Positions 48,017 through 64,000 of a DNA stretch of 64,000 nucleotides are shown piece after piece (position 1 is the first letter of the stretch; the number at the start of each line of letters is the position of its first letter). The DNA is from Coprinus comatus (lineage: Eukaryota; Basidiomycota; Agaricomycetes; Agaricales; Agaricaceae). The stretch is from positions 39,619 through 103,618 of the forward strand of contig JAWPGT010000078.1 of the NCBI GenBank assembly GCA_034638255.1, given 5' to 3'. The position numbers and the translations under genes were made by a program. Below the pieces are notes generated by a model. It did no database searches and was not told the origin of the DNA. It saw only the letters and a program-made list of their open reading frames with translations.

Positions 48017-48111
48017 CTTCAAGAGGCCAGCATCGCTGGACAGAAGAGCCCTGTTCTCCACAACAGAAGACTTCCCACTGACGCACCCCTCTATCCCTCA
48101 CTCGCTAAACC

Positions 48112-49281
48112 ATGACCGATCCAGCACCGCCCCAGCCGACTTGGAATGAAATCGTCGAAGGCACCTTCCACGAGCTTCGGGCATCGCTTGATGCTCTACG
48201 GCAGCGAGTAGAAGCTACCAAATCCACTTCCGCCACCACTGCCAATGTACTTGCCACCATCACTGCCCAACTCTCCACACTTGTTTCGGCCTCTCAGACC
48301 ACCCCTTCACCTGCTACCCCTGCGACGCCAGCCCCTCCATCTCCCCCCGAACATCCACGGACATTCCGAGGGCGAGTCGCTACGCCACCCGATTATGATG
48401 GCGACCACAAGACAGGCCAGGCCTTCCTCAACGCCTGTAACCTGTACATCCGACTCTCAGGCGAATTCCAGTCGGACGAGGAAAAGATGCTCTGGGCCAT
48501 GTCCTACATGAGGAGCGGTCGGGCTGCTACATGGACGGAAGAGATATTTCGGCTGGAATCACAGGTCGGGAATTTGCCTTTTGAGGACTGGGAGGACTTC
48601 AAAACCCAGTTCAAGGCTCGCTTTTTGCCGATCGACGCCGAGTCAGAAGCGGTTATCACATTGGAAGGGGATACTTACTTCCAGAAAGATCGGACTTTGG
48701 AGGATTACCTGGACACCTTCAAAGCACTCATTTCAGCATCTGGGTACACCGACCGGAAGGTCACTGTCGTCAAGTTTCGTCGAGGTCTTCGCACCAACTT
48801 GGCCGACTCCATTGCCACTATGACCCTGGGCTGACCCTCCGACTCCAATCCCGATGGCTGGTATTGTGCAGCCACCCGCTTTGAAGCTTCCCGACTTGCC
48901 AATGTTGCATTCAAGGCAAATCATCGCCTGGTACCACCGCCAGCTCCCAGACCCGTTTTTCACTCCTTCCCAAAACCCCCACCCCATCCAACTCCCCTGA
49001 TTCCCCTACCGACATTCGCCCACGTAATGCCGACGCCTGGGAACCCGACTCCGATGGATATCGACGCGCCCAAACTTCGTAACCTGACTCCTTCCACCTG
49101 CTACCGATGTAAGCAGCCTGGACACATCAAGGCAGAGTGCCCCCGACGCTTTGATGTCCGGCTCATGACCCTGGAGGAGAAGGATGAGTTGCTGATGAAC
49201 CTGTTGGCAGAGAAAGACGTTGCCAACGTCGGAAGGCAGTCGGAAGGGTCGGTGGAAACAGATACACAGGATTTTCGGTAA
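48112..49281 (+). pseudogene. Gypsy 2 gag with CCHC knuckle
   Basis: Gag packages element RNA. The frame opens MTDPAPPQPTWNEIVEGTFH and carries the retrotransposon gag core (TWTEEIFRLESQ, FEDWEDFKTQFKARFLPID, DYLDTFKALISASGYTDRK). A TGA at 48832-48834 breaks it, where LGRPSD is expected. It continues in the same frame through NPTPMDIDA to the zinc knuckle CYRCKQPGHIKAECP and stops at 49281. Without the one TGA it would be a normal-length gag of about 389 codons. Confidence 0.88.
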
Positions 49282-50720: not shown

Positions 50721-51720
50721 TCGAGACTCAAGAGAAGAGATTAGTATTAGGTAATATTACTGTAGGTATCACAATTGTAATGAAATATATATATATATAT
50801 AGATAAATATACTGTGTGATATGAACAGAGATCAGGAGGCTACCAGGAGTAGACGTAAGGATAAAACTAGTAGAAAGCGAGAGAGTTGTATGTGAGAGTG
50901 AGAGTGAGAGTGAGAGAAGAGGGGCTAAGAGAATATCATTTGTTTTGGGTGAATTCGAAGCCAAGTTAATGAATGGCTTTTACTACAAATCAGGAGTGGA
51001 AGAGAGAAAGAGAGATAGAGAGAGAGAGGGAGAGAGTGTGTGGATGCGTGCGTGCATGCGTGAGTGAGTGAGTGACAGAGTAAATGAGAACGAGAAAGGG
51101 GACCTACAGTATATGTGAGTAACAATTGTCTTGAGTGAATTTCGAAGCCAGGACAAGTACTCTATTATGAATGGAATGGGGAGAGATACCAAGCAAGAGA
51201 AAGTGAGAGAGCGAGAGAGTGAGAGAGCAACAGCGAGAGTGAGGGAATGAGTGAGAACAGTGAAAGAGTGCATGAAGGTGTTGAAAGAGGCGTACCATAA
51301 AGATTCATATTGAAGTGAACAATTCATAACATTAACATCAGGTGATATCATAAGGTGTTGATTGGCGCTACCACATGGGGTTGGATGATGGGTAATTGGA
51401 CGTCCAGTCTCTTGCAAGCTACAGGATGAGAGAGAGAGAGTGGGCGAGCAAGCAAGTGAATGAGAACAAAAACAAGGACTTACAACTTGAATAATATGGT
51501 AGAATACCATTTGTCTTGCGTGAATTTCGAAGCCAAGGTGGTGGCTCTGGCCAACTGTATGAGGATGAGAGAGAGAGAGGGGAGAGAGATAGAAAGGGAG
51601 TGAGTAAGAGCAAGAGCAAGAGCAACGAGGAGAGAACTTACAGTATGATAGTATAATTTTGTTGGCACGACTACATGTGGTTGAATGACGGGTGATAAAA
51701 CTGGGGCAGGGGATTGATTA
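50721..51720. repeat. GA microsatellites in a dispersed tandem repeat
   Basis: GTGAATTTCGAAGCCA-like text recurs near 50950, 51133 and 51518 (the first as GTGAATTCGAAGCCA). Each is followed within about 100 bp by GAGAGA runs. Minus-strand Leu/Ser-rich ORFs are translations of the microsatellite and are not genes. Confidence 0.65.
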
Positions 51721-51945
51721 AAATGGTAACAGATAGGTACCACTAGTTGTAAAAAAAGGGTACCACTAGTTGTTTTAATTGGGTACATACGTATGTTCCT
51801 TTCATTATACATGTGTATGTGCCTTTTATTGTACATATATCTGTATGTATATACCCATTATTATTATATGACACATTTTTTCATGATTAATGATGATTTT
51901 CTACACTTTTAGTTTTGTCATATGCGAAAAAAAAAACATAAGTTG

Positions 51946-52120
51946 TAGTAGAATCCTACTAAAAACATATGGGTTCTTTAGTAGAAATCTACTAAAAGTA
52001 CGAGTTCTTTAGTAGAATCCTACTAAAGAACACATATCTTTAGTAGAAATCTACTAAAAGTACGAGTTCTTTAGTAGGATCCTGCTAAAAGTACAAGTTC
52101 TTTAGTAGACTTTTTCTCAG
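51946..52120. repeat. Tandem palindromic repeat array (about 31-bp unit)
   Basis: Four full units and two partial ones contain TTTAGTAG-(AAAT/AATC)-CTACTAAA, an 8-bp perfect inverted repeat with a 4-base centre. They are spaced 31-32 bp and separated by AAGTACGAGTTC-type linkers. The array begins with TAGTAGAATCCTACTA at 51946. It lies 65 bp beyond the 3' end of the gene at 52185-54123. Clustered short palindromes at an element edge are typical of transposase-binding subterminal repeats (inference). Confidence 0.8.
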
Positions 52121-52184
52121 TTTTTCATTTCTATTATTGTTATTACCACCATATCATATATTCAAAGGCTATAGATTACTACAA

Positions 52185-54123
52185 TTAGTTTATAACCATA
52201 TCTTCACCAAATAACTGCCTATATCTCTTTTGAAACCTCGTAACCATTTTCTTGAGAAACCACTTGTCCCATTCATCATCTTCAGGATAGACAGTATTGC
52301 GATAGAAGTCAGTCCACTTGACACCAAAATTCTCTTCAAGATTTTGGATCACGAATAACGTGTTTCTAGGATTTAAAGGAAGACTGTTAAATCCTTCAGT
52401 AATCTCCTCTCCATTTACAACTGCAGTAACCTTCCACAACTTCCAAAATATAGCTCCTGCAATAACAGAGTCACAAGGACAACCACAATGATAAAGCCCA
52501 TCCTCCTGAAAAGTAACGCTTTTTTTCCCTCTTCCAGCTCTACTTGCCCCAACACCATGAATAACAATATCACGAACTGTCTTGTCCCCATCAATATGGT
52601 TCGTACTCTTATCCTTTTTAGAATGATGAAGACAATAGATATTTCCCAAATTGTTGGTAAGAAGCTCCTCCGTAAGAGCTTCTGTTGCAAGATAGGCTTC
52701 AAATAAATAAGAACAATGCATGCGTATTCGGTTCTTGACCTCGGCTTCAATCCTAGGCTTCCTTGGGCCTTTAGTAGTTAGCCACATATGAAGTATAGCC
52801 AAGTCATTCTCTATAGTATATCAATATAGACAAAATTACGATTATAAATTTACATACCTTTGTATTCAGCCAGTTCCTCCTCAGTAAGGACCTTTAGTTC
52901 AGCCTCTCTTGGTTTTTTGACTTTTGTTTTGGAACTTTTATCACCACCTTCTACCTGAATAACCTTTTGTTTCTTAACAACCCTATCAGAACGAATATTA
53001 GTTGGTTGGAGCTCTATAGATATTTGTCAATGATACAATAATAGAATAATAGAATGAATAACAAACCAGGTAATTGTGTATCTTCATCATCACTTGAGCT
53101 ATCATCAACATCTAGAGGTCGCTTTTTGGAAAGAACTAAACTAGGATGAGATATAATTTTTAAACAATAAATAAATGACTTACCATAGCTCTCTTTATCT
53201 ATGCTACCAGAGAGAAGCTCTTGATTACTAGAAGTTGGTACAACATCACTAGTATCTTAATATTAATAGGTTATTAAAGCTGTTTTTATGAAATGATTAC
53301 AAAATAAAATACGATACTGATTTGTAATATTATCAGAGGTGACCTGATCTAATCCAGAATCTTCTATGATTATAGGTTAATTGTTGTGATAAAGAATGTA
53401 GAAATAGAAGATACCATTATTTGAAGATGATGATGATGATAATAGAGAAGTAAGAGGGGAAGACAGTTGTTTGTTAGGAGAATGTTGAGATTTCATAGGT
53501 GATGTAGTTATAACTACTTCAGCTCTATTCTTCTTAGGAGAACGATGGAGAATAGTTGACATAGATTGAGCAAGAGCGGAAGAAGGCTGAGAAAGAGCAG
53601 AAGCAGATTCAAGACCAGTTGAGGAAGATTGAGAAAGCGTAGAACCAGATTGAGCAACAGCTGAGGAAGTAGATTCAGATGTAACTATTGTAGTTTTGTT
53701 TTTCTTGTTATGAGAATGCGGGGAAATAGTTGAAGTAGATTGAGAAATAATTGGAAGAGGTTGAGGAAATTCTACCTCTAGTTCTATAACCAAAGTATAT
53801 AAGATGAATAACGAATATATGTAAAAAATAACATACCATTTCCTCTAGATACTCCAGTATCTGGTTGCTTCTTACTTTTGGTAATTTTACAACGTATAGT
53901 CTTTAGCTTTCCTTTTATTTGAATAATTTCATTCTTGAGAACTTTAATAGTAGCTAGAGACTGATTTAAATAAACAGAAAATAAAATAAAATAACATAAA
54001 CATACCAAGATCAGGTTGTCCTTTAGTCTTACTCTTTATCTTGTTAAGAGTAGCGAGATGTTTGGTGAGTTGACTACTGAGTTCTTTCTCCAAGGAATAA
54101 GGTGAAGTATTAGAAGAATCCAT
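52185..54123 (-). CDS. Unrecognised 521-aa protein, eight exons, next to TET/JBP gene
   Basis: Exons 54123-54006, 53953-53837, 53783-53415, 53363-53318, 53248-53184, 53135-53067, 53013-52858 and 52810-52185 all join in phase to 521 aa. The start is MDSSNTSPYSLEKELSSQLT. Residues 15-75 look coiled and basic (KVLKNEIIQIKGKLKTIRCK). A long Ser/Gln-rich stretch follows, then an acidic/basic part with KKRPLD and KKPREAELKVLTEEELAEYK. The last 210 residues look globular (LAILHMWLTTKGPRKP, YLATEALTEELLTNN, GLYHCGCPCDSVIAG, LNPRNTLFVIQNLEENFG). I do not recognise the domain. It runs head-to-tail 119 bp after the dioxygenase gene. A nuclear role is guessed from composition only. Confidence 0.8.
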
Positions 54124-54241
54124 AGTTGAGAGAATTGAAGTTTCGAAAAACAATAGTAGGAATGAGAAAGCAAGAAGAATGGTGACGTGGCAAGTTGGTT
54201 TATATAAGGGAATTGTTATGAAGTACAAACAAAATACCTAA

Positions 54242-55571
54242 TCAAACACGTGCCCAATTAGGAAAAGAAATATTCATCTTATCAAAGAGAACCTTCTTTA
54301 CGAAAAATGCATAACAAATCCTATCACCTTTGTCCCAATCACCAACAGAATGTTTCAAAAGATTTCCACAAAACTGAATAACAGTACCTGGAGGATAAGA
54401 AAAGGTAGCACCTAATTCAGGAAATGTAATTTCAGCTTGTTCATAACTTCCAACAGAAACTACTTGGTCAAACCAAGCATAGTTACCATTAAAGTCAAAA
54501 TGAGGGGGAGATATGCGATTAGAAATGATAGAAATAGCAGAAAAAGAAGACTTCCACTTATTTCCCCATTCCTTAGTCAATGGAGAAATATTAATCCCAT
54601 CCTGTTCATCTTGTTCTGAAGGTTTAGGATTCTCCAATCTCTTGATATATCCTATTCCAGAATTGTATTGAGTAGGATGAATATAGGCCAAGATATCATC
54701 CAAAACTCCAAAAACACTTTGTGTTTCTTGTAACCAGGTAGAAATTAGAGCTGAGTTCTTCAAAATTGACGTAGAAGGTTTCATAATTGCTTCTTTAGAA
54801 TACTAAAGTACATCATTAATCAAAATATTATAAGAGTAAAAAAGAAACATACTGCTTTTCCAACCTCATACCATCCAGGACAAAGTGTTAAGACACCAGG
54901 TTCAATTGTTTGATTGACTTTAGAAACAAAATTGGTAGATTCCATTCTCCAAGAACCATTATCTTTTATTTCAAATAAAGGCTCTACCAGTTTAGCAGCA
55001 TTAACCAGCTGATCCTAAAAAACATATGAGGAATAGAAAAAATATAAATGACAAATACCCACCTGATATTCCTTTACAAGAACTTGAGGTAGATAAAGGA
55101 TTAGAAGATAACCATTGGTATCGGTAATAACTGCAGGAGTATCAATATATCCCAAGTTCATATTATTGAAAAGGGTAGTGATTTTTGAAGGTTTGGTAAG
55201 CGTTTGGATATCAATATCAAGAGTTACTAGTATCTTATATTAATAAAGTAAATTAATGGAATTTAAAACCTACTTTGGTTCTTTAAGGCAGCTACAATAG
55301 CCCTTGCAGAATTTCTTCTTTGAAGTTCATCCAGTGGAACCAATCTTCGAGTACTTCCTGTAATAGGATCATATAAGGTACTATAGTATTATTAGTTATA
55401 TATTAGTTAGAAAAAAAGAATAGAAAAAACCAACCTATGAGTTGTTGTTTGATACAGAGTTCTTCGATGGATTGATATAGAAAGCTGCTCTAAGGAGGTA
55501 GGTTTTGGAGTGGTCTTCTTTCTTTCCCTGCCACGTTGACGTTTCCTTGCTTTTTTCTCCGGAACAGTCAT
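54242..55571 (-). CDS. TET/JBP-type 2OG-Fe(II) dioxygenase
   Basis: Exons 55571-55435, 55353-55274, 55226-55063, 55014-54853 and 54802-54242 splice in phase to 367 aa. The start is MTVPEKKARKRQRGRERKKT, a basic nuclear-type tail. Family landmarks follow: NLGYIDTPAVITDTNGYLLI, VNQTIEPGVLTLCPGWYEVG, then the oxygenase core with HFD (about 282-284), the distal His in GNLLKHSVGDW (about 332) and Arg in GDRICYAFF (about 342) for 2-oxoglutarate. TET/JBP enzymes oxidise 5-methylcytosine or thymine in DNA, and in mushrooms this family is strongly expanded and often linked to KDZ transposons. All iron-binding residues are present, so it could be active. The exon 2 acceptor (55353) is the phase-compatible choice. 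Confidence 0.85.
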
Positions 55572-55771
55572 TAGAGTAAGAAATAATAACTTAAAAAAAG
55601 AGTGTGTTGTCCAATAGTAGAAAGGAGGAATAAAGTAGTAGGATCTTACCATCCATTCTTATATGAATGCCGAGAAAGGGTAAGAAGAACTTATATTAAA
55701 AAGCTGAAACACCATGTGGTATACATGTGCAGCATTATTACATACCATAACAATAACAAATGTACCTGAAC

Positions 55772-56586
55772 TCATGTGATAGGCTCAAGTTCCATGATGC
55801 CAGGGTCAGATTCTGTCTTGAGAGCTGCCAGCATCCATCGAAAAACCGAAGTGAAAAAATAAAGCTGAAGGGCTGATGTACAAATGATGAGGATTAAAGT
55901 CAAGGTATGGATGCCGGAGTGCTGGGGGTCAATGATTATTGATTCTCCGAAAACACCAGCAGACGAAGGATGCTGATAATGCGTGGGTGACATAGGGAAC
56001 TCATAGCTGTTCTGAGCCCGGTCATTCATCTGTTTTCGTTCAAGGGTTGGCTGTCTTTCAGTGGAAGCCTGGTGTGAGTGTCGAATTGAGTCGAAACTAA
56101 GTCCCCTTCTGGGACCCATTACTCTGTCGAAACTTGTACGGACTATGCTCTTTGGGACAAAGTTGCCGCTACGATCACGGGTGAGGGACGGACAACTCCC
56201 TTGTGTGCTGGGATGATCGACCAATGGCAAGAGAGGCTCCCAACTTCGTTTTAGTTTTTTCGTGGCCAACGAATCTTGAATGTTGAGGTATGTTTGATCT
56301 GCTCCCTGTGCGTTTCCAATATGGTCGTCAGAGCTGTCCGAAGGACGGTGGTTTACATCAGATAGCTGAAAGAATTTGGGATCCTGAGAATTACGAGCAA
56401 CGTCTCCTGCTGAGGCAATCGAATTCAGTCTTGAGAATTCCAATTCTTGTTTATTGACGGTCGCAAGGGACAAAAAAAGACAAGGATGGCTGGATTCCTC
56501 GAGCATGGGTTGAGTGAAACTGGTGAGCAAAAGTGGATCAATCGTACAAAAGACTGATGTAGTTGAAAAGAAGCTGACCATCATGT
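55772..56586 (-). CDS. Hypothetical protein with signal-like N-terminus and C-terminal membrane segment
   Basis: A single open frame starts at ATG 56586 (MMVSFFSTTSVFCTIDPLLL) and ends at 55772, 271 aa. The N-terminus looks like a signal peptide. The middle is polar (MNDRAQNSYEFPMSPTHYQH). Near the end IHTLTLILIICTSALQLYFF is a likely membrane helix. Function is unknown. The first 90 bp or so, including the ATG, are duplicated at about 57380-57440 in front of a different frame. Confidence 0.5.
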
Positions 56587-57063
56587 ATATAAGCCTTCTT
56601 TCTAGGTTGTACAAAATTGAGATCAGTAACTATATGCGCATATATTGAGATACTCACCTCCAGAACGCTCCCTCTGAGCGACACATGGATCGGGTGTAGG
56701 GGTAGTTAAAGAAGAGTGTGGTGAAATCGACCGGGTACAGCTTTTTGAATTGGCCATCATTAAAATAAGAGAAAAGGCAGCAAAAAGAAGAAATCAAGTG
56801 CTGATAAAGTAGGAGAGCGATAACGATGCGAAAGTAGACGTTATAAACGTTGTAGGCAAAAGACGTTCAAAAATGCGGTGGCGCTTTGAATGCAAAGTGC
56901 AAGAAAGCGAAGTAGTGACACAGACTGAAAGCCTGATAGAATATAATAATAATAATAATGAAACGAGAGCTTGCAAGGAAAGCTAATGATGCGAGACACA
57001 GCATTGACAAAAAAAGCGTTCAAAGGGACGCCAAATGGTTTTTAGGGGAAAGAGGAAAAGTGA

Positions 57064-57429
57064 CTATATGCGCTCGAAAAGCGACGAGGACGACGGGGAG
57101 GACAAGCCTCGACGAGTAGCGGAGTAGAGGATAGCATAGAAGGGTAGAAGGAGTGCAGCTGCACGGAGAGAGTAAGAGATGCTAGTGGTTAAGAAGAAAG
57201 AGAGACGAGGAGGGTCTGGCGTAGTTGAAGGATCTGCGTTGTGATCTGTATGAACAACTGGTTGGCCGAGGATGGAGAAGCAGAGTCTGCGACAAGACAG
57301 CTGACGGCAGCGAAGACTCTCCTCTGGCACAACACGATGGGCAGTGCAGAAAAGCACCCGAGGAGCACAGGCAGGACCAGTTCCAATCGTGCAGAAGACT
57401 GATGTAGTTGACAAGAAGCTGATCGTCAT
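57064..57429 (-). CDS. Hypothetical ORF sharing a duplicated 5' end
   Basis: The minus-strand frame MTISFLSTTSVFCTIGTGPA continues to SSSLFERI. Its first 11 codons and upstream DNA match the gene at 55772-56586. The remainder is unrelated and Arg/Ser-rich. It may be a chimeric or spurious ORF. Confidence 0.3.
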   Translation of the reverse strand: MTISFLSTTSVFCTIGTGPACAPRVLFCTAHRVVPEESLRCRQLSCRRLCFSILGQPVVHTDHNADPSTTPDPPRLSFFLTTSISYSLRAAALLLPFYAILYSATRRGLSSPSSSSLFERI

Positions 57430-57890
57430 GTATATGAGCCTTCTTTCTAGGTTGTAGACCGGTGGAAACGCCTAATCAAGTCCTCGTTCACAAGAAATCT
57501 TTTTCGCAGCTGTTTCTACAGCCCAATAACGTCCCCTTTGAGCTTGGTTCATTTTTTCGGTTACATACGTATGCATTGCAACAACACAAATAGTGGGCCG
57601 ATCGAAATCCTTTGCGGTTCAGAGAATGGCGTGAATTTGGCTCCTGCCACATCACACAGGCATGATAGGAGCCCCATAATACAGTCCAGCAGCAAAGACA
57701 GACACCACTATGCGCGAGAGATGCCAGGACTTGAAAGCAGAGAGTGTAGTGGTATGTTCAGAAAGAACGCAGGACACCGGAAAATGCCGAACGAGTCTAG
57801 TTTCTTCTCGTCTCTCAAGCAAGCTTCCCCACGCTCGTTGTAGGCCCTTCCTCTCTTCTGCCCAGCAGCTACTTATACTCATTCCAGAAA
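57430..57890. other. No supported gene
   Basis: Short overlapping ORFs occur on both strands without motifs. Confidence 0.4.
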
Positions 57891-58290
57891 ATGGTTGCGT
57901 TCACTGCCCTTGCCTTTGCTGACTCCCTCGCTGGTTTCGCCTCCCCCAACCTCACAGTCACAAAGCCTACCTCAAGCGTTTGGTGGGGTGAGTTGGAACA
58001 GTTGTCGTTCACGACAACGAACTCTCCTGGTCCTGCCAGGATAGCACACACGACACCTTCACCATCTTGTATGTCGTTGAATTTCTATTACTCTTTTCTG
58101 AACTCAAATTTGTAGCGTTGCAAATGACGTTCTCACCTCCCCCATTGCTACCAAGTCCATCCAGAACAACTTTGATTGCTCCTTGTCCGCCAAACCATGC
58201 TCAACCAAGGCCCTGGTAATGGATATCGCGTTCTCTTGACCAATACCCTCAACTCCAGCGACGTATGTGATTCCAAAAACCTCTTCTAAC
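57891..58290 (+). pseudogene. Kre9/Knh1-like secreted protein fragment, frameshifted
   Basis: It starts MVAFTALAFADSLAGFASPN with a signal peptide and the family opening LTVTKPTSSVWW. Then, in shifted frames, come VVVHDNELSWSCQDSTHDTF, an intron (GTATGT...TTTGTAG), VANDVLTSPIATKSIQNNFD and NQGPGNGYRVLLTNTLNSSD. This is the N-terminal beta-sandwich domain common in basidiomycete Ser/Thr-rich, often GPI-anchored, wall proteins. At least two single-base frameshifts break it. Confidence 0.65.
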
Positions 58291-58315
58291 ATTGTTTGAC
58301 CCCTATTCCATGGAT

Positions 58316-58762
58316 GTTTACATGTCATCGACGATTCTCGATCCCCCCCCGTTTACGCATCGTCGACGATTCTCGATCCCTCGTTTACAAATCGTCGACG
58401 ATTCTCGACTTCCCCCGTTTACACGTCTTGGACAATTCTCAATCCCCCTGGTTTACACGTTGTCAACAATTCTCAATCCCCCACCCCGTTTACACATCGT
58501 CGACAATTTTCGATCCCTCGTTTACAAATCGTCGACGATTCTCGACTTCCCCCGTTTACACGTCTTGGACAATTCTCAATCCCCCTGGTTTACACGTTGT
58601 CAACAATTCTCAATCCCCCACCCCGTTTACACATCGTCGACAATTTTCGATCCCTCGTTTACAAATCGTCGACGATTCTCGACTTCCCCCGTTTACATGT
58701 CATCGACGATTCTCGATCCCCCCCCCCCGTTTACGCATCGTCGACAATTCTCGATCCCCCTT
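58316..58762 (+). repeat. Minisatellite, about 34-bp units in a 138-bp higher-order repeat
   Basis: There are about 13 units of CGTTTACA(A/C)(A/G)TCGTCGACGA-type sequence, each followed by TTCTCGA and a C run. Four-unit blocks repeat as a group: 58354-58491 closely resembles 58492-58629. Many units contain the palindrome ATCGTCGACGAT. It separates two unrelated gene fragments. Confidence 0.9.
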
Positions 58763-58764
58763 TT

Positions 58765-59290
58765 AAGACCGTTGAGTACTATCAATCCATCTTCCAGTCC
58801 GTTGGCAGTCGAGGATCAGCCCTCACTGTTGTTCCATTCAACCAAGCTTCCAAGCAAGACGTCGAGGCTCTCACTGATTATATCTACAAACACTTGAACA
58901 TGGATCTCGACTACATTATCCCTTGGATGTGTCAAGAACAAGAAGGCAAGCAGGCACATTATCCCCCCCCCCCCACTCAGGCTCCCCCTCTCCCCTCACT
59001 ACGGTCTGTTCAGAAACGATGGTCTCTACTCTGAGTCTGAGATTTCTCTCGAGACTTTGTTCCAGAGGTGGGCTTCCGAAAGTTGGGGTGTATATCTATG
59101 CTTGGCTGGTGCAGTCATTGGGTACGCTTTTTCTACATGTAAATCTGCTCAATAAACTGACTCAATCTCTTCAGATGAACTCGTGGCACTGGTCTTATGG
59201 GACCCACCAACATTTTCGCACACGAACTCATAGGTTTCAGTGTCACGACTTTCTCCACGAAGGAAATGGCATTGAATATCGTGTCATGAT
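58765..59290 (+). pseudogene. Fatty acid synthase alpha subunit fragment (ketoreductase region)
   Basis: The reading KTVEYYQSIFQSVGSRGSAL, TVVPFNQASKQDVEALTDYI and NMDLDYIIPW is the fungal type I FAS alpha chain ketoreductase region. After an internal deletion it continues in another frame with LFRNDGLYSESEISLETLFQ and RWASESWGVYLCLAGAVIG. After an intron-like break comes RGTGLMGPTNIFAHELIGFS, then VTTFSTKEMALNIVS. The order matches the enzyme, but frameshifts and the missing middle make it a non-functional fragment. Confidence 0.8.
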
Positions 59291-59609
59291 CAAAGCAGGG
59301 TTGGATGCCATTGATATACGAGTTGCCATGTTCGCCAGTGATACTATCAAGTTTCCTCTGAAGAGCAGCAGTGTTGATTGTAAGAATAGATTGTAGATAA
59401 ATGTGTTATTACGGACGCACATTGTTGTTTGTTGTATATTCTTTTTTCTCCTGAATATACATGTTTTAAATCATGGTTTCTCTCATGTATGAATGTCAAT
59501 GGCTCGACTGCCGAATCACGTTGTGAGCGCCCATCTAGTAATCGGCCCGGTTTCAGATGATCTGGCAAGACCTGGTGACGTGGCATCAGACCCAGGGTCC
59601 TCAGGATCA

Positions 59610-59630
59610 GGGGCCATATATACCAGCCCA
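59610..59630 (+). promoter_or_regulatory. TATA box and upstream CRE-like site for the hairpin-array transcript
   Basis: CATATATACC near 59615-59624 resembles a TATA box. TGACGTGG near 59576 is a bZIP/CRE-like site about 40 bp upstream. Both lie ahead of a splice-competent region that leads into the hairpin array. Confidence 0.4.
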
Positions 59631-59644
59631 AGCACGAAAATGTT

Positions 59645-60785
59645 CTTTCTTATTTCCCCCCACCATCCCCCACCTTTGTCGTCTCTGTATCCCCCTTGTT
59701 CAACATCTGCTTCATCGTTCTCGAGACTTGGCTTATGTATTGATCACTTGCTTGCTGCTTTACAATTCCGTCGTCATCATTAATCCTCTCGTCGTCATCA
59801 TCATCGTCTATGTACAGCCGGTTCTCTCGTCATCGTCATCGTCTATGATCAACGTATGTTATTGGCCTTGTCACCGTTCATCATGGTGATCATCGTTGTC
59901 ATCCATGATCACCAGTATCCTCGTCGTCGTTGTCTGTGTTGATCATTTTGTATTTATAGCATGTGCTATAATAAGGTGAGTACTATTTATAATGTAAAGT
60001 TACTTCTATTCTTGGTATTTTTATTTCAGTCTTCCCGTTTATTCTTCTACCTTGACGATGTCACACCAGAGGCAGCCCTGCGTCATAATCTTCATTCATG
60101 CTGAGGGCCCCAGCTATGAACATGATTGTGTGTGGTACTGGTGTTACCTTTCTTTGAAAGGTCTTCGTTACATAGGGACACATGTTGACTTGCCGCTCGT
60201 TTCGGAAACGTAGAGCTGGCGTTGATATCGTTGTTCTTATGCTGTTCCATCCTAATGTGCCTGGAGGTTTTGTACTTCCAGGGTTCCTCTTGTTCGCAGG
60301 AGGAGGGGTGGGTGTGGGTTGTCCCTTGCATTCAATGTGCTTCATGACTTCGTGTTGTGAAGGTTTCTCTTGTTCGCAGGAGAAGGATGGTCCTTGAGTT
60401 GTCCCTTTATTATTATCATCATCAATGTGCCTGGAGGTTTCGTACTTCCAGGGTTCTTCCTGTTTGCAGGAAGAGATGGTGTGTTCTCTTTTCAATAACC
60501 ATTTATGTGCTTGGAGGTTTCGTACTTCCAAGATACCCCTTCTTCGGAGGAGGTAGGTGGTTGTTCTGGGTCTGGGGGCTATCTATTGTCCACTCTAATG
60601 TGCCTTGAGACTTTGTGTTTCAAGGGTTCTCTTGTTCGCAAGGGAGGAGGGATGATTTCTTGTGTCTTCATCTTCAGTATGGTTCAACATCCGTTTTTGT
60701 AAGTACTTCTATTTCAATTCTACTTATCTAACTTTTGGCTTGTCTTATAGATTGTTGGGATAGGTGTTGGGTGTTGATAAACTTG
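59645..60785 (+). ncRNA. Candidate spliced non-coding transcript carrying the hairpin array
   Basis: Exon 1 (about 59645-59975) is rich in CGTCATCAT and has no convincing protein. A clean 54-nt intron follows (AAG|GTGAGT at 59976, TTATTTCAG ending 60029). Exon 2 (60030-60698) holds the five double hairpins. A 52-nt intron comes next (GTAAGT at 60699, TCTTATAG ending 60750), then a short exon ending before GTGAGT at 60786. The splice signals and the TATA box support a plus-strand RNA polymerase II transcript. The transcript itself is a prediction. Confidence 0.45.
60260..60646 (+). repeat. Array of five covarying double-hairpin units
   Basis: Each unit has ATGTG, a 9-bp stem with a 5-nt loop (UUCGU or UUUGU), 1-2 nt, then an 8-position stem with a UUCG/UUUG loop. 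First hairpins lie at 60260-60282, 60340-60362, 60430-60452, 60510-60532 and 60603-60625. Second hairpins lie at 60285-60304, 60365-60384, 60455-60474, 60535-60554 and 60627-60646. Outer stem bases change in pairs: CCTGGA/TCCAGG, CTTCAT/GTGAAG, CTTGGA/TCCAAG, CCTTGA/TCAAGG. The second hairpin of the fourth unit has one C-A mismatch. Units are spaced 80-93 bp. Confidence 0.85.
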
Positions 60786-60789
60786 GTGA

Positions 60790-61439
60790 GTGTCAGTCTG
60801 TTAATCTATTCTATTCTAATCAGTGTTTTCTATGTTTTTTTGGATGGGAGAGATTTAGAGTAGAAAAGTAAGTTCAACTTTTTATTTGTTAGACAACTGA
60901 TGTATTTGGGATTTCAGGTTGTTCACGAAATTGTGGTTTGTGATTTACAACATTTCAGGTGATGTTTCTTTTATTTGTTCTTTATTTCTAATACTGATTC
61001 ATCATTCCAAGGTCTTAGGTAAAGTAGTGTAGTTGTACATAGTATTTTTTTTCATAGTATACATTTCTTTTGGAACATGTATTCCTTGTGGCTTGAGCAC
61101 CCACAAGTAGTATATGTTTCATTTTCACTTTTAATATGAAGTTAGCTCAAACTTCTTATTGAAAGTGTTTTTAATCTTCTTTTTGACTTGTATTTGGTAT
61201 GTATATAATTTTTTGCTAAAATGTCGCCCTAACCCTAACCCTAAATGCCATATTTTCGCACTTGTAACTATTATATTATAATGAAATATATTTTAATATC
61301 ATATTTCTTCTTTAAGCATCTCTTCGTTAAATTTAATATAAGATTCCTTTTATAGCTACTGACTGATTGATTGATTGATTGATCTTTGATTCAAATACTT
61401 CAAGATTATATCTTTCATTCTCTAACTTGTACCTCCATC
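60790..61439. other. AT-rich stretch with splice-like signals, no protein
   Basis: Several GTAAGT and TTTCAG-type motifs (60868, 60917, 60957) suggest that the preceding transcript may have further short exons. GATTGATTGATTGATTGATC lies just before the next gene (61364-61383). Confidence 0.4.
61227..61244. repeat. Interstitial telomere-type repeat, three CCCTAA units
   Basis: CCCTAACCCTAACCCTAA matches the TTAGGG telomere repeat of fungi in reverse orientation. It is too short to be a telomere, so it is an interstitial trace. Confidence 0.8.
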
Positions 61440-63132
61440 ATGCCTCCTCGAAAACGTTCTAAACTCTCTCTCAACAGTATTGATCTCTTTGATGGTGATC
61501 TTTCTTCTCTCGAAGAAGATGATTCTATGGAAGTTGATGGTCCTACTACTTCAAGCCATCAGACCACAACTTCTACAAATGACCACATTGTATAATATGT
61601 TTCTTTATTGTTTTCATTTAACTTACATGTTTATCTAGTATTGTTCTCTTTGTATGAATGGTGGAGATCTTATCTTTTGTGATACTTGTGATGGTGCAAT
61701 CTGTAGAGATGTTTGTCTTCCCAACTTGGAAAGACAACACTTAAAGCAGAAGTTTACCTGCCCTCAATGTTGGATTAAGACTAATGGAGACTACGCTCCA
61801 TATAAGGTTCATATTTTTAATTATTGATATTCCAAACCTAATCAGATATTTTTTAGCCTTTCGAAAATCTCAATCAAACTTTTCCACTCCAGTCCAATAT
61901 CTTATTTCGGTCCAAGTTCTCAACTGTTAATATCGATAATACTGCCATTGTTGTTTTTCGACTTTCATCTCTTAACCCAAAATCATGTGTCTCTACTTTG
62001 GCCTATGGACATCTCCTATCCTATTTTCCAAGATCTAAAGGATCTCCTTATGGCTATTTGGAGTTAATTGAAATTAAAATCGATCTATCTGCAGATACTG
62101 CAGTTGAGAAACTCAAAAAGAGAATTGTGAAGCTTTGTACTGAACTAAAGAAGTAATTTTCTATTTTAATATTCAGAAATAAAATTATCTAACTATTTAT
62201 TTAGATTCAAACGTTATATTTTTTTCCTCCATACACATTCTACTCCTGATACTGGGCTTATTTGGGTTGATCCTCCTCCCAACATGGAGGCTGTTCCAAT
62301 TTCTGAGGTATAGATTTTACTCTTTTTCTTTTTTCATATACTAATAATGTTCTTAGTTATTTCCAATCATTTTCCCTCCATCTTTACTTAAAATAATTCA
62401 GAAAGATGAAACAGCCCTTTTGTTTTTTATTATGTGTGGTGGTCCTTTTCTCTCGGTAAAAGATAGGGCTGACGTTCATCAACTTGTATCTCCGTAAGCA
62501 TTATTTTTAATTATTATCTCCTATCTCATTATTTTACTAGATACTTTTGGCTTTCTATGGCATTTTTACAACTTGATTTTCACCCTGTCAACTGCAATCT
62601 CTTTATCCTCCAATTTCTCCAACAAACACTTATCTTGGGCAGCAAAAACCTTTTTCCCAATATTCTTTACTCTGAATTCGATCTTGGACTTGGTACAGAT
62701 TGTATAATGTTGATCAAGAAAGACTCAGATGAAATTTGTTTCCTTCATTGGGGTAATAAACAATTCCGACCACTTGGCCATTACCTTCCAAACTCCTGTT
62801 CTTCTTGTCATGTTTTTAAACCATGGGTTCTTAGGAAGAATAAAGATGACAAGCCTATTACAAAATTAAAGAATATCAGCTGGGGTAAGATCTTTGTTTT
62901 TATCTTTGATATCTACTTATTTTCTATCCTAGATTTATCGCCCATTACCATATCTTGTGGTAATGCTACTTGTAATAATACTATAACATTTCATCCTATG
63001 CCAGGTTCAACTGAACTGGGTCTTATGAAAGGAAACCAGGATACAGGGATGGGAAGGATTCTTGGATTTTGGTTTTATAGGTATGAGAATTTAAGAGGAG
63101 AAACCATTGATAAAATATTTTTTACATTGTAG
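61440..63132 (+). CDS. PHD-finger-like protein, seven exons
   Basis: Exons 61440-61589, 61639-61806, 61857-62152, 62205-62307, 62402-62493, 62541-62884 and 62933-63132 join in phase to 450 aa. The start is MPPRKRSKLSLNSIDLFDGD, basic then acidic. Residues 51-106 form a zinc finger: CSLC, CDTC, C...C and a final CPQC, with GGDLIFCDTCDGAICRDVC as in PHD fingers that read histone tails. The remaining 340 residues look globular (TVNIDNTAIVVFRLSSLNPK, YGYLELIEIKIDLSADTAVE) with extra CSSC and CGNATC pairs. The C-terminal domain is not recognised. AT-rich codons and dense introns match the genes at 52-56 kb. It converges on the minus-strand gene ending at 63268. Confidence 0.8.
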
Positions 63133-63267
63133 TTTTTTTGTTTGTTGAAAGTTGTTTTTTTAGTTTAAAAAAATGAAACAAATGTTGCTGTTTGGTTTAT
63201 TACTAAGATATCTAAGATGTCTGCTTTTCTATCTCTGCTAATTTAGCTCTTAATTCCTCCAAAAGCT

Positions 63268-64000
63268 CATCTTTTTTTAATTGCCAATCCTTTTGTATCC
63301 CCCCTCCTTGCAACTACCATAGTATTAACCATTTGCCGAAACTTCTCAATAAACTCAATTGTTTCTTCCTTTCCTTCTCTTCTTAATCTTGGTGAACTAT
63401 AATGTGCATCCATAAGTGCACCACTTGATGGTTGTGAAAGAATAATAGTATATGAATCAGTTTCTTGGGCAAACCGTTCTACCTAGAAAGAAAATTTTAT
63501 TATTAATAGTTTAATAAGATTATGGGATTACTTACTGATCCTATTAACTTGGGAAGTAAACGATTATATCTTTTACTTCGTTTTGTTGCATCTTGGATTA
63601 AAGGTCTTAATTCTCTTGGTCGTTTTATTTCTATCTTTTCTTAGTTTTATTATTATTCAATAATAACAAAAAAACATACCCCATTTTTGATTTCCTTTCA
63701 TTGCACCTTCTACATAGCCCAATCCATTACTATAACTTTTATTACCCCTTTTTTACCAAATAAATTTCCTGTTCCTCCAGGAGTTGGTGTATTCATAGTT
63801 GAGACTGTTGGAGTTGATGAGTCATCCGAATCATTATCAATATCATCATAGTCTGTTGAGCCTCTTGAATCTTCAGTTCCTGGTGTTTCAGACCAGTTTC
63901 TCATTTCTCTATTAGATAACGGAGTTCTTGGAACTGGAATATATGAGGATTGTAATCCAGTTTGAGGAGTAGGAGAATCACGATGAGAGATATTATCCTC
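63268..64000 (-). CDS. Unrecognised multi-exon gene, 5' end outside window
   Basis: Exons from the window edge to 63757, then 63709-63680, 63630-63536 and 63482-63268 keep phase. The N-terminal part seen is Ser/Thr/Asp-rich (RDSPTPQTGLQSSYIPVPRT, DYDDIDNDSDDSSTP). The C-terminal part looks globular and helical (RPRELRPLIQDATKRSKRYN, ETDSYTIILSQPSSGALMDA, EETIEFIEKFRQMVNTM). After a G6 run the frame used here ends at 63268. In the next frame a coiled coil (DWQLKKDELLEELRAKLAEI) runs to 63212, so a frameshift or a 31-nt intron may give the true C-terminus. The family is unknown. Confidence 0.6.

Follow-up and report, generated by a model that had tools for sequence, protein, structure and literature searches.

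The 64,000-nt window of the Coprinus comatus genome analysed here contains a tandem array of short double hairpins whose stems differ in sequence from unit to unit. The locus raises the question whether the folding of an RNA is what has been kept, and to which genetic element such an RNA would belong.

Five double hairpins with compensatory changes

An earlier reading, made from the sequence alone, had placed the array at 60260..60646; it does lie there, but its bounds are better drawn at 60255-60651 on the plus strand. All five units described by that reading are present in the sequence with the same layout: AUGUG, a first stem of 9 bp (P1), a 5-nt loop UUYGU, 1 nt, a second stem of 8-9 bp (P2) and a 4-nt loop UUYG. 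The double hairpin is predicted for every unit folded singly (z -2.7 to -5.4), the second loop being 3 nt long in the minimum-energy fold of unit 4, and the single C-A mismatch reported for this unit is real.

The compensatory changes that had been seen between the units proved well beyond chance. In the 5-row alignment of the units, which compares tandem units of one lineage, 98.9% of the cells pair and 10 of the 18 base pairs are changed on both sides; column shuffles give 4.1 (0/500 reach 10), and structures slid by 1-3 columns give at most three. One of five covariation measures, the count of further pair types, is weaker (40/500 shuffles reach it). The replacement of other pairs by G-U, also noted before, is strand-specific, with 15 G-U versus 1 A-C on the plus strand, and the folding energy of the array is -171.0 kcal/mol for the plus strand and -104.6 kcal/mol for the minus strand.

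When the fold of the whole exon 60031-60698 is predicted, P1 forms in all units, with mean pair probabilities of 0.91-1.0. P2 is strong in units 1 and 3 only (0.89 and 0.88); in units 2, 4 and 5 alternative pairing competes with it (0.14, 0.28 and 0.11). An outer stem P0 around each unit is suggestive only as a model; the matching flanks rank 5 among 120 permutations.

The array belongs to a KDZ/TET-type DNA transposon

In the 35.7-Mb assembly the array is found in 14 copies of 94-100% identity, four of which match part of the query only, and the flanking sequence is common to the array copies. A pattern scan of the assembly for the unit gave 65 places at 0-1 mismatch, 63 of them within the 14 array copies; the two single matches elsewhere lack the stem (by eye). 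At two mismatches there are 64 places, 35 of them listed; the total for the reversed control pattern is 46. The copies have three to five units each, the fifth unit of C24p being found by covariance model.

The surrounding element, whose features in the window are collected in Table 1, was overlooked by the sequence-only reading. Its left end starts with GGGGCAGG, its right end lies past the contig end, and a copy at C27 measures ~17.1 kb between ends (256262-273368). The terminal region has 41 matches in both orientations, and the inverted terminal regions span ~220 bp. In the C80 copy, one exon of the transposase matches PF18758 (E = 1.8e-5, 25 bits, cut-off 26.6), and the CxC4 domain, 'associated with KDZ transposases', is found with E = 4.5e-44. 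This transposase has 385 relatives; many of the 120 listed are marked PF18758, and the named ones among these 120 are from mushrooms, e.g. Collybia, Mycena, Pluteus and Collybiopsis, at ~60-68% identity. By sequence, the transposase domain, the terminal repeats and a target-site duplication, read at the related C33 element, place the host element among the KDZ-type DNA transposons. In IMG/VR, neither the pattern nor the transposase led to a relative.

Table 1. Positions of the host element and of the parts of the apparent RNA unit in the window
Feature	Position	Strand	Basis
Host element, window part of KDZ/TET-type DNA transposon	51703..64000	+	Shared termini in both orientations, aligned ends
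Subterminal 31-bp repeats, TAGTAGAATCCTACTAAA type	51946..52109		Repeats; also present near right end of other copies
Exon of the element's TET/JBP-type dioxygenase gene	54242..54802	-	Tet_JBP PF12851, E = 1e-14
TATA box of RNA unit, predicted	59617..59622	+	Sequence; TATA ahead of related 5' domain in 5/6 C33-group loci, not in C22
Predicted intron GTGAGT..TTTCAG	59976..60029	+	Sequence; one non-CpG change in 322 cells, seven copies
5' structured domain	60059..60250	+	Copy conservation; related sequence in C33, C84, C13, C108 and C7 loci
Hairpin HP0, changing stem, loop AGGGCCC	60095..60120	+	Loop shared with C33, C84, C13, stem letters differing (by eye)
Double-hairpin unit 1	60255..60308	+	Fold and alignment
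Double-hairpin unit 2	60335..60388	+	Fold and alignment
Double-hairpin unit 3	60425..60478	+	Fold and alignment
Double-hairpin unit 4, one C-A mismatch	60505..60558	+	Fold and alignment
Double-hairpin unit 5, second stem 8 bp	60598..60650	+	Fold and alignment
Predicted intron GTAAGT .. CTAAC .. TAG	60699..60750	+	Donor and branch motif similar to C33-group ones
Hairpin A, loop UUGAGC 61093-61098	61071..61121	+	Covariance model, alignment
Hairpin B, GCUCAA 61145-61150 complementary to loop A	61126..61167	+	Covariance model, alignment
TTTGCTA + 9 nt + CCTAACCCTAACCCTAA motif, telobox-like	61212..61244	+	22 loci, constant spacing
Element gene with PHD-like finger, exon 61639-61806	61441..63132	+	PF00628, E = 0.0012, below cut-off

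A larger putative RNA unit around the array

Judged by its sequence, the array sits in an apparent RNA transcription unit on the plus strand at ~59.6-61.25 kb. Six diverged loci came out of a DNA search with 59400-61440; the part that they share with it covers only ~61117-61244 at 70-72% identity. The order of parts is kept in five of the six loci of the C33 group: (i) a TATA box, (ii) the 5' domain, (iii) an intron donor with CTAAC, (iv) hairpins A and B, and (v) TTTGCTA followed after 9 nt by CCTAACCCTAACCCTAA. The C22 locus is without the 5' part. Further groups, C13/C65 and C108/C102/C3/C98, have hairpins A and B with other letters, and at C7 the 5' domain alone is seen in the stretch read.

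A search with the covariance model R1 of the array found no array in eight diverged sources (best 9.3 bits, E = 0.43) nor in 13 more (best 10.0 bits, E = 0.28). With all lineages coming from one genome, and the array seen in the window's lineage (W) only, the array is by sequence a young, lineage-specific part, the youngest of a larger conserved RNA unit in which hairpins A/B and the 5' domain are more widely spread.

Within the 5' domain, the minimum-energy fold of the C33 stretch prefers another pairing to HP0, and HP0 is unclear in C108 and C7. Its loop AGGGCCC (60104-60110) presents a 6-nt palindrome, GGGCCC, at the stem tip, which is the form of an RNA dimerisation loop. A 51-aa frame at 60059-60211 is open in 12 of the 14 copies (two were not matched); a 5'-domain peptide was rejected on the mostly non-synonymous changes between C33 and C84 and on a stop in the C13 stretch (by eye).

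Hairpins A and B in four lineages

A covariance model, R2, was built from six sequences of the C33 and C13 groups, with the window lineage excluded. Applied to the 64-kb window, it recovered 61071-61167 on the plus strand with 58.2 bits (E = 3.4e-10; all E-values of R2 are approximate, and rows inside a lineage are closely related). The two other matches listed for the window were a minus-strand mirror of hairpin B (23.8 bits, E = 0.005) and one at chance level (E = 1); parts of A/B thus match on the minus strand too, less well. R2 also found all four loci given from the C108 group, a fourth lineage, at 69-71 bits (E ~1e-12), and all 12 given from W, 11 at 58.2 bits and one at 48.2. The stretches examined at C7, C99, C127 and the host gene of C33 gave no match to hairpins A/B.

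The structural alignment A6, fitted to R2, has 14 rows from four lineages. W is represented in it by L001 and L016, although 13 of its copies have A/B; L038 and L071, which score the same as L036, were omitted. In A6, 93.9% of the cells pair, 20 of the 45 pairs are changed on both sides, and covariation is 0.416 versus 0.167 in shuffles (0/500) and at most 0.105 in slid structures. One of five measures, the number of pair types, is not beyond the shuffles (64/500 reach it); for the six training rows alone this holds for two of five. The stems of A and B, ~16-21 bp long, have 57 G-U versus 4 A-C.

The loops of the two hairpins are complementary to each other in every lineage, although with other letters. 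The putative kissing pairs comprise 6 bp in W (UUGAGC/GCUCAA), C33 (UGCACA/UGUGCA) and C108 (UUGCGC/GCGCAA) and 4 bp in C13 and C65 (UGUG/CACA), with letter-shuffle p values of 0.0024, 0.008, 0.012 and 0.046, respectively, for loop stretches picked by eye. The loop-loop register is constant in A6, in which pair 26-102 is C-G, A-U or U-A and pair 27-101 is G-C or A-U. The kissing pair is broken in C22 and weakened in C89, where it needs a G-U.

Substitutions among the element copies

Non-CpG changes, i.e. substitutions outside CpG-type sites (CG, TG, CA), were counted in all 14 copies, of which C83 and C27p are partial and several carry large indels, and again in the seven copies without large indels. 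In the 14 copies they amount to 1/820 in P1 stems, 4/926 in P2 stems, 0/296 in unit loops, 1/1512 in the 5' domain and 1/845 in hairpins A/B. The flanks have 72/2133 (59377-59649), 61/2819 (60750-61050) and 27/1940 (61245-61440), and the predicted exon 1 (59650-59975), with 38/2519, is not conserved. In the seven copies the 5' domain shows 0/756, and unit stems and loops, 5' domain and A/B together show 1/2323 versus 102/5003 in the flanks (Fisher p 6e-16, for copies that share ancestry and are therefore not independent). The divergence of the linkers, as it had been described, is seen between the units and is slight between the element copies, in which the linkers have 10/1042 changes (14 copies) or 3/581 (seven copies).

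The strand-specific wobble, the conservation of stems and loops among copies and the recovery of A/B in diverged lineages by a model that had not seen the window lineage bear out the proposal that selection acts on RNA folding. On this sequence evidence such selection is supported, and it would reach well beyond the five units.

At CpG-type sites of the unit loops (60269-60273 and equivalents), 36 of 280 cells are changed, mostly C-to-T (by eye). Since these sites change often, the difference between UUCG and UUUG loops is at least partly mutational decay. The pattern looks like methylation of the element, although a TET/JBP gene is carried. The predicted intron 1 (59976-60029) is nearly unchanged, with 1/658 non-CpG changes in the 14 copies and 1/322 in the seven.

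What follows the unit, and the CCCTAA motif

The C33 element is a short relative of the host element: its 4601 bp (212597-217197) include the RNA unit and ends of the host-element type, flanked by an 8-bp target-site duplication (TCCTAAAT), and it is inserted in a KDZ transposase gene. Compared in translation with 20 kb of the C80 copy, a stretch beyond which the TET side lies, the element showed no clear transposase match inside it, the transposase matches at C33 lying in its flanks, and no gene related to the C80 stretch after the RNA unit. Instead of the PHD-like gene, a convergent minus-strand gene comes after the unit at C13, and C7 shows a weaker match of this kind. The unit is thus not merely a leader of the PHD-like gene, and what comes after it in C13, C7 and C33 indicates that it is not tied to one downstream gene.

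The exact motif TTTGCTA + 9 nt + CCTAACCCTAACCCTAA occurs with equal spacing at 22 separate genome loci (23 rows, C13 appearing twice). It is altered in C13/C65 and not intact in the C108 group; within the seven W copies it has 3/189 non-CpG changes and is not more conserved than the flanks. The assembly contains CCCTAACCCTAACC at only five places, of which four belong to W copies and one to C13, and similarity between lineages ends at 61244-61257. Telomere-like repeats of the form (CCCCCTAA/CCCCCCTAA)n stand at two of the 20 contig starts read, C12 (1-50) and C20 (1-95); such TTAGGGGG-type repeats are unusual for a mushroom. The likely host telomere differs from the CCCTAA motif, which makes a telomere template or guide unlikely. 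A telomere-addition retroelement, to which the motif and the location of copies close to contig ends had first pointed, was rejected: in those copies that were read the motif has a single, internal position, transposon ends are present, and the likely host telomere differs. A role as promoter (telobox) of the next gene is weakened, because different things follow the motif in C13 and C33. A DNA-level site of a Tbf1-like factor, or a terminator, is possible, and the motif may be a binding site or an RNA motif. In Saccharomyces cerevisiae, Tbf1 is described as binding clustered TTAGGG motifs (PMC2834713).

A probable structured RNA gene of the transposon and alternative explanations

We consider it probable, if with some reserve, that the KDZ/TET transposon carries its own structured RNA gene on the plus strand at ~59.64-61.25 kb, which would be TATA-driven, probably spliced and probably non-coding. 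The unit has a predicted structure and covariation, is conserved among copies and lineages, and is present in the 4.6-kb C33 element; its sequence suggests transcription, splicing and a lack of coding. The RNA would be composed of a 5' structured domain with HP0 (loop AGGGCCC) and of 3' hairpins A and B with kissing loops, with the CCTAACCCTAACCCTAA motif adjoining its 3' end, and in the W lineage the exon between these parts would hold three to five tandem double hairpins. For its function we tentatively propose a ribonucleoprotein scaffold, since the number of units varies while the stems and the joint AUGUG stay. The array would offer multiplied, equal binding sites to one element or host protein, A/B (and HP0) would form the compact core fold, and the scaffold would help expression, anti-silencing or transposition of the element.

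Several other explanations were weighed against this proposal. It is conceivable, though unlikely, that the RNA, or small RNAs cut from A/B, acts on host silencing as a decoy or hairpin precursor and shields the element from RNA silencing or methylation. The length of hairpins A and B would suit such a role, the TET/JBP enzyme of the element and the changes at CpG-type sites of the unit loops make methylation pressure likely, and the units vary in number as expected for a sponge; however, unit stems of 9 bp are too short for Dicer-type processing, and the kissing loops suggest a fixed fold over a precursor. We see a small chance that the hairpins serve the PHD-like gene at 61441 as a long 5' leader or cis-regulator through which its translation or splicing is controlled, as its start codon lies 197 bp past the CCCTAA motif and the predicted introns run toward it. 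Against this stand the convergent gene after the unit in C13, with its weaker counterpart in C7, and the C33 element, in which no C80-related gene follows the unit.

The location in a DNA transposon and the zinc clusters of KDZ proteins (CxC4) would fit a role of the hairpins as DNA, i.e. as cruciforms, single-strand folds or transposase binding sites. We regard this as very improbable, given that G-U pairs prevail on one strand in both A/B and the units, the minus strand folds much worse, the units are central rather than terminal in the element, and next to them a TATA box and an intron donor have been retained. An RNA of telomerase-RNA-like or telomere-guided type, for which CCUAACCCUAACCCUAA would be the template or guide, could account for a 17-nt telomere-like repeat at constant spacing in 22 separate loci, but is scarcely credible for a multi-copy unit with a motif that mismatches the likely host telomere, read at 2/20 contig starts, and with nothing conserved after the motif in both lineages. 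Hardly any weight is given to a minus-strand repeated peptide, which the sequence-only reading had named among the findings that would overturn it. A 173-aa minus-strand frame does cross most of the window array, and of the 13 other copies eight have a long open frame of 143-173 codons in the examined 520 nt; however, the units lie in different frames within it (by eye), the longest frame shrinks to 86-104 aa in C24p, C68, C27m and C6 and to 93 aa in C27p, where the contig end cuts it, and the diverged loci scanned are without the array.

Comparison with known RNAs and elements

Rfam gave no match at gathering score in the window, and at E up to 1 the stretch 59377-61440 matched IBV_D-RNA alone (19.4 bits versus 35). 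The omega RNAs of TnpB/Fanzor elements are structured non-coding RNAs carried by transposons. The unit differs from them in having no variable guide, its last 17 nt being constant, and the TnpB-type domain PF07282 had no match in the assembly, a search in which the positive control genomes, six of 14, are prokaryotes, so that a diverged Fanzor could be missed; on both grounds an omega RNA was rejected. Mitochondrial double-hairpin elements (DHEs) consist of two adjacent hairpins. The units here stand in tandem at one site of a nuclear-type transposon, in a transcript-like unit, and the pattern scan at 0-1 mismatch found no dispersed singles with the stem (63 of 65 places in the 14 array copies), which sets them apart from DHEs. 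Scaffold RNAs such as roX contain short stem-loops in several copies, to each of which one and the same protein could bind; the likeness to these is an analogy confined to repeated hairpins.

Eukaryotic cut-and-paste DNA transposons are thought of as DNA ends plus proteins. Fanzor guide RNAs apart, we know of no structured RNA gene belonging to such a transposon, and a search of the open-access literature found no RNA of this kind. The TET+ KDZ transposons of mushrooms (Kyakuja, Zisupton; PMC12730594) are described as likewise combining a KDZ transposase with CxC4 and a TET/JBP gene in one element. The main text of that account (Kojima 2025, PMC12730594) uses the word 'RNA' twice and 'hairpin' or 'non-coding' not at all, and mentions no RNA unit. 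Two TET+ Kyakuja families are given there a 7-bp duplication and CA..TG ends without TIRs (Kojima 2025, PMC12730594); the C33 element, with an 8-bp duplication, termini GGGGCAGG..CCTG and an inverted region of ~220 bp, departs from this description of Kyakuja. With basidiomycete telomerase RNA, as described for Malassezia (PMC12506658), the unit shares a telomere-like C-rich motif in a structured RNA; it differs in a motif that deviates from the likely host telomere, in having nothing conserved downstream between lineages, and in its many copies. A telomerase RNA was rejected because the motif does not provide a template for the CCCCCTAA/CCCCCCTAA repeats at the C12 and C20 starts (2/20 read).

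On present evidence, which comes from one genome, the RNA appears to be of a new kind, falling outside Rfam, telomerase RNA, Fanzor RNA and DHEs. A wider reading, which we offer as a speculation with a modest chance of being right, is that mushroom KDZ transposons are RNA-assisted: a dedicated structured RNA would act in a ribonucleoprotein needed for mobility or escape from silencing, and short elements made of the RNA unit plus ends would live off it. If true, it would be the first case known to us of a eukaryotic cut-and-paste transposon with a structured RNA component other than a guide. Across four lineages of one genome, and also where the element has no recognised transposase, covarying helices and a covarying loop-loop contact persist, so the question whether a DNA transposon needs its own RNA becomes testable. 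With a TET/JBP gene in the same element, the RNA may also bear on how fungal transposons escape methylation.

Other features of the window and of related loci

The stretch 55760-59377 of the element differs between copies and in the window resembles fragments of a host glucanase gene (by eye); a Pfam scan of one frame in it gave no match. Within it, 58316-58765 is a ~34-bp tandem repeat with a 137-bp higher order (GTTTACACATCGTCGACAATTCTCGA units), of which other copies have diverged versions. Closely spaced inverted element ends at C5:12126-12934, C97:26562-27178, C89:30194-31047 and C107:19722-20750 are likely short MITE-like derivatives. Elsewhere in the window, 48109-48834 encodes a retrotransposon Gag domain (PF03732, E = 1.1e-8), and 11767-36844 contains several diverged internal duplications of 65-85% identity.
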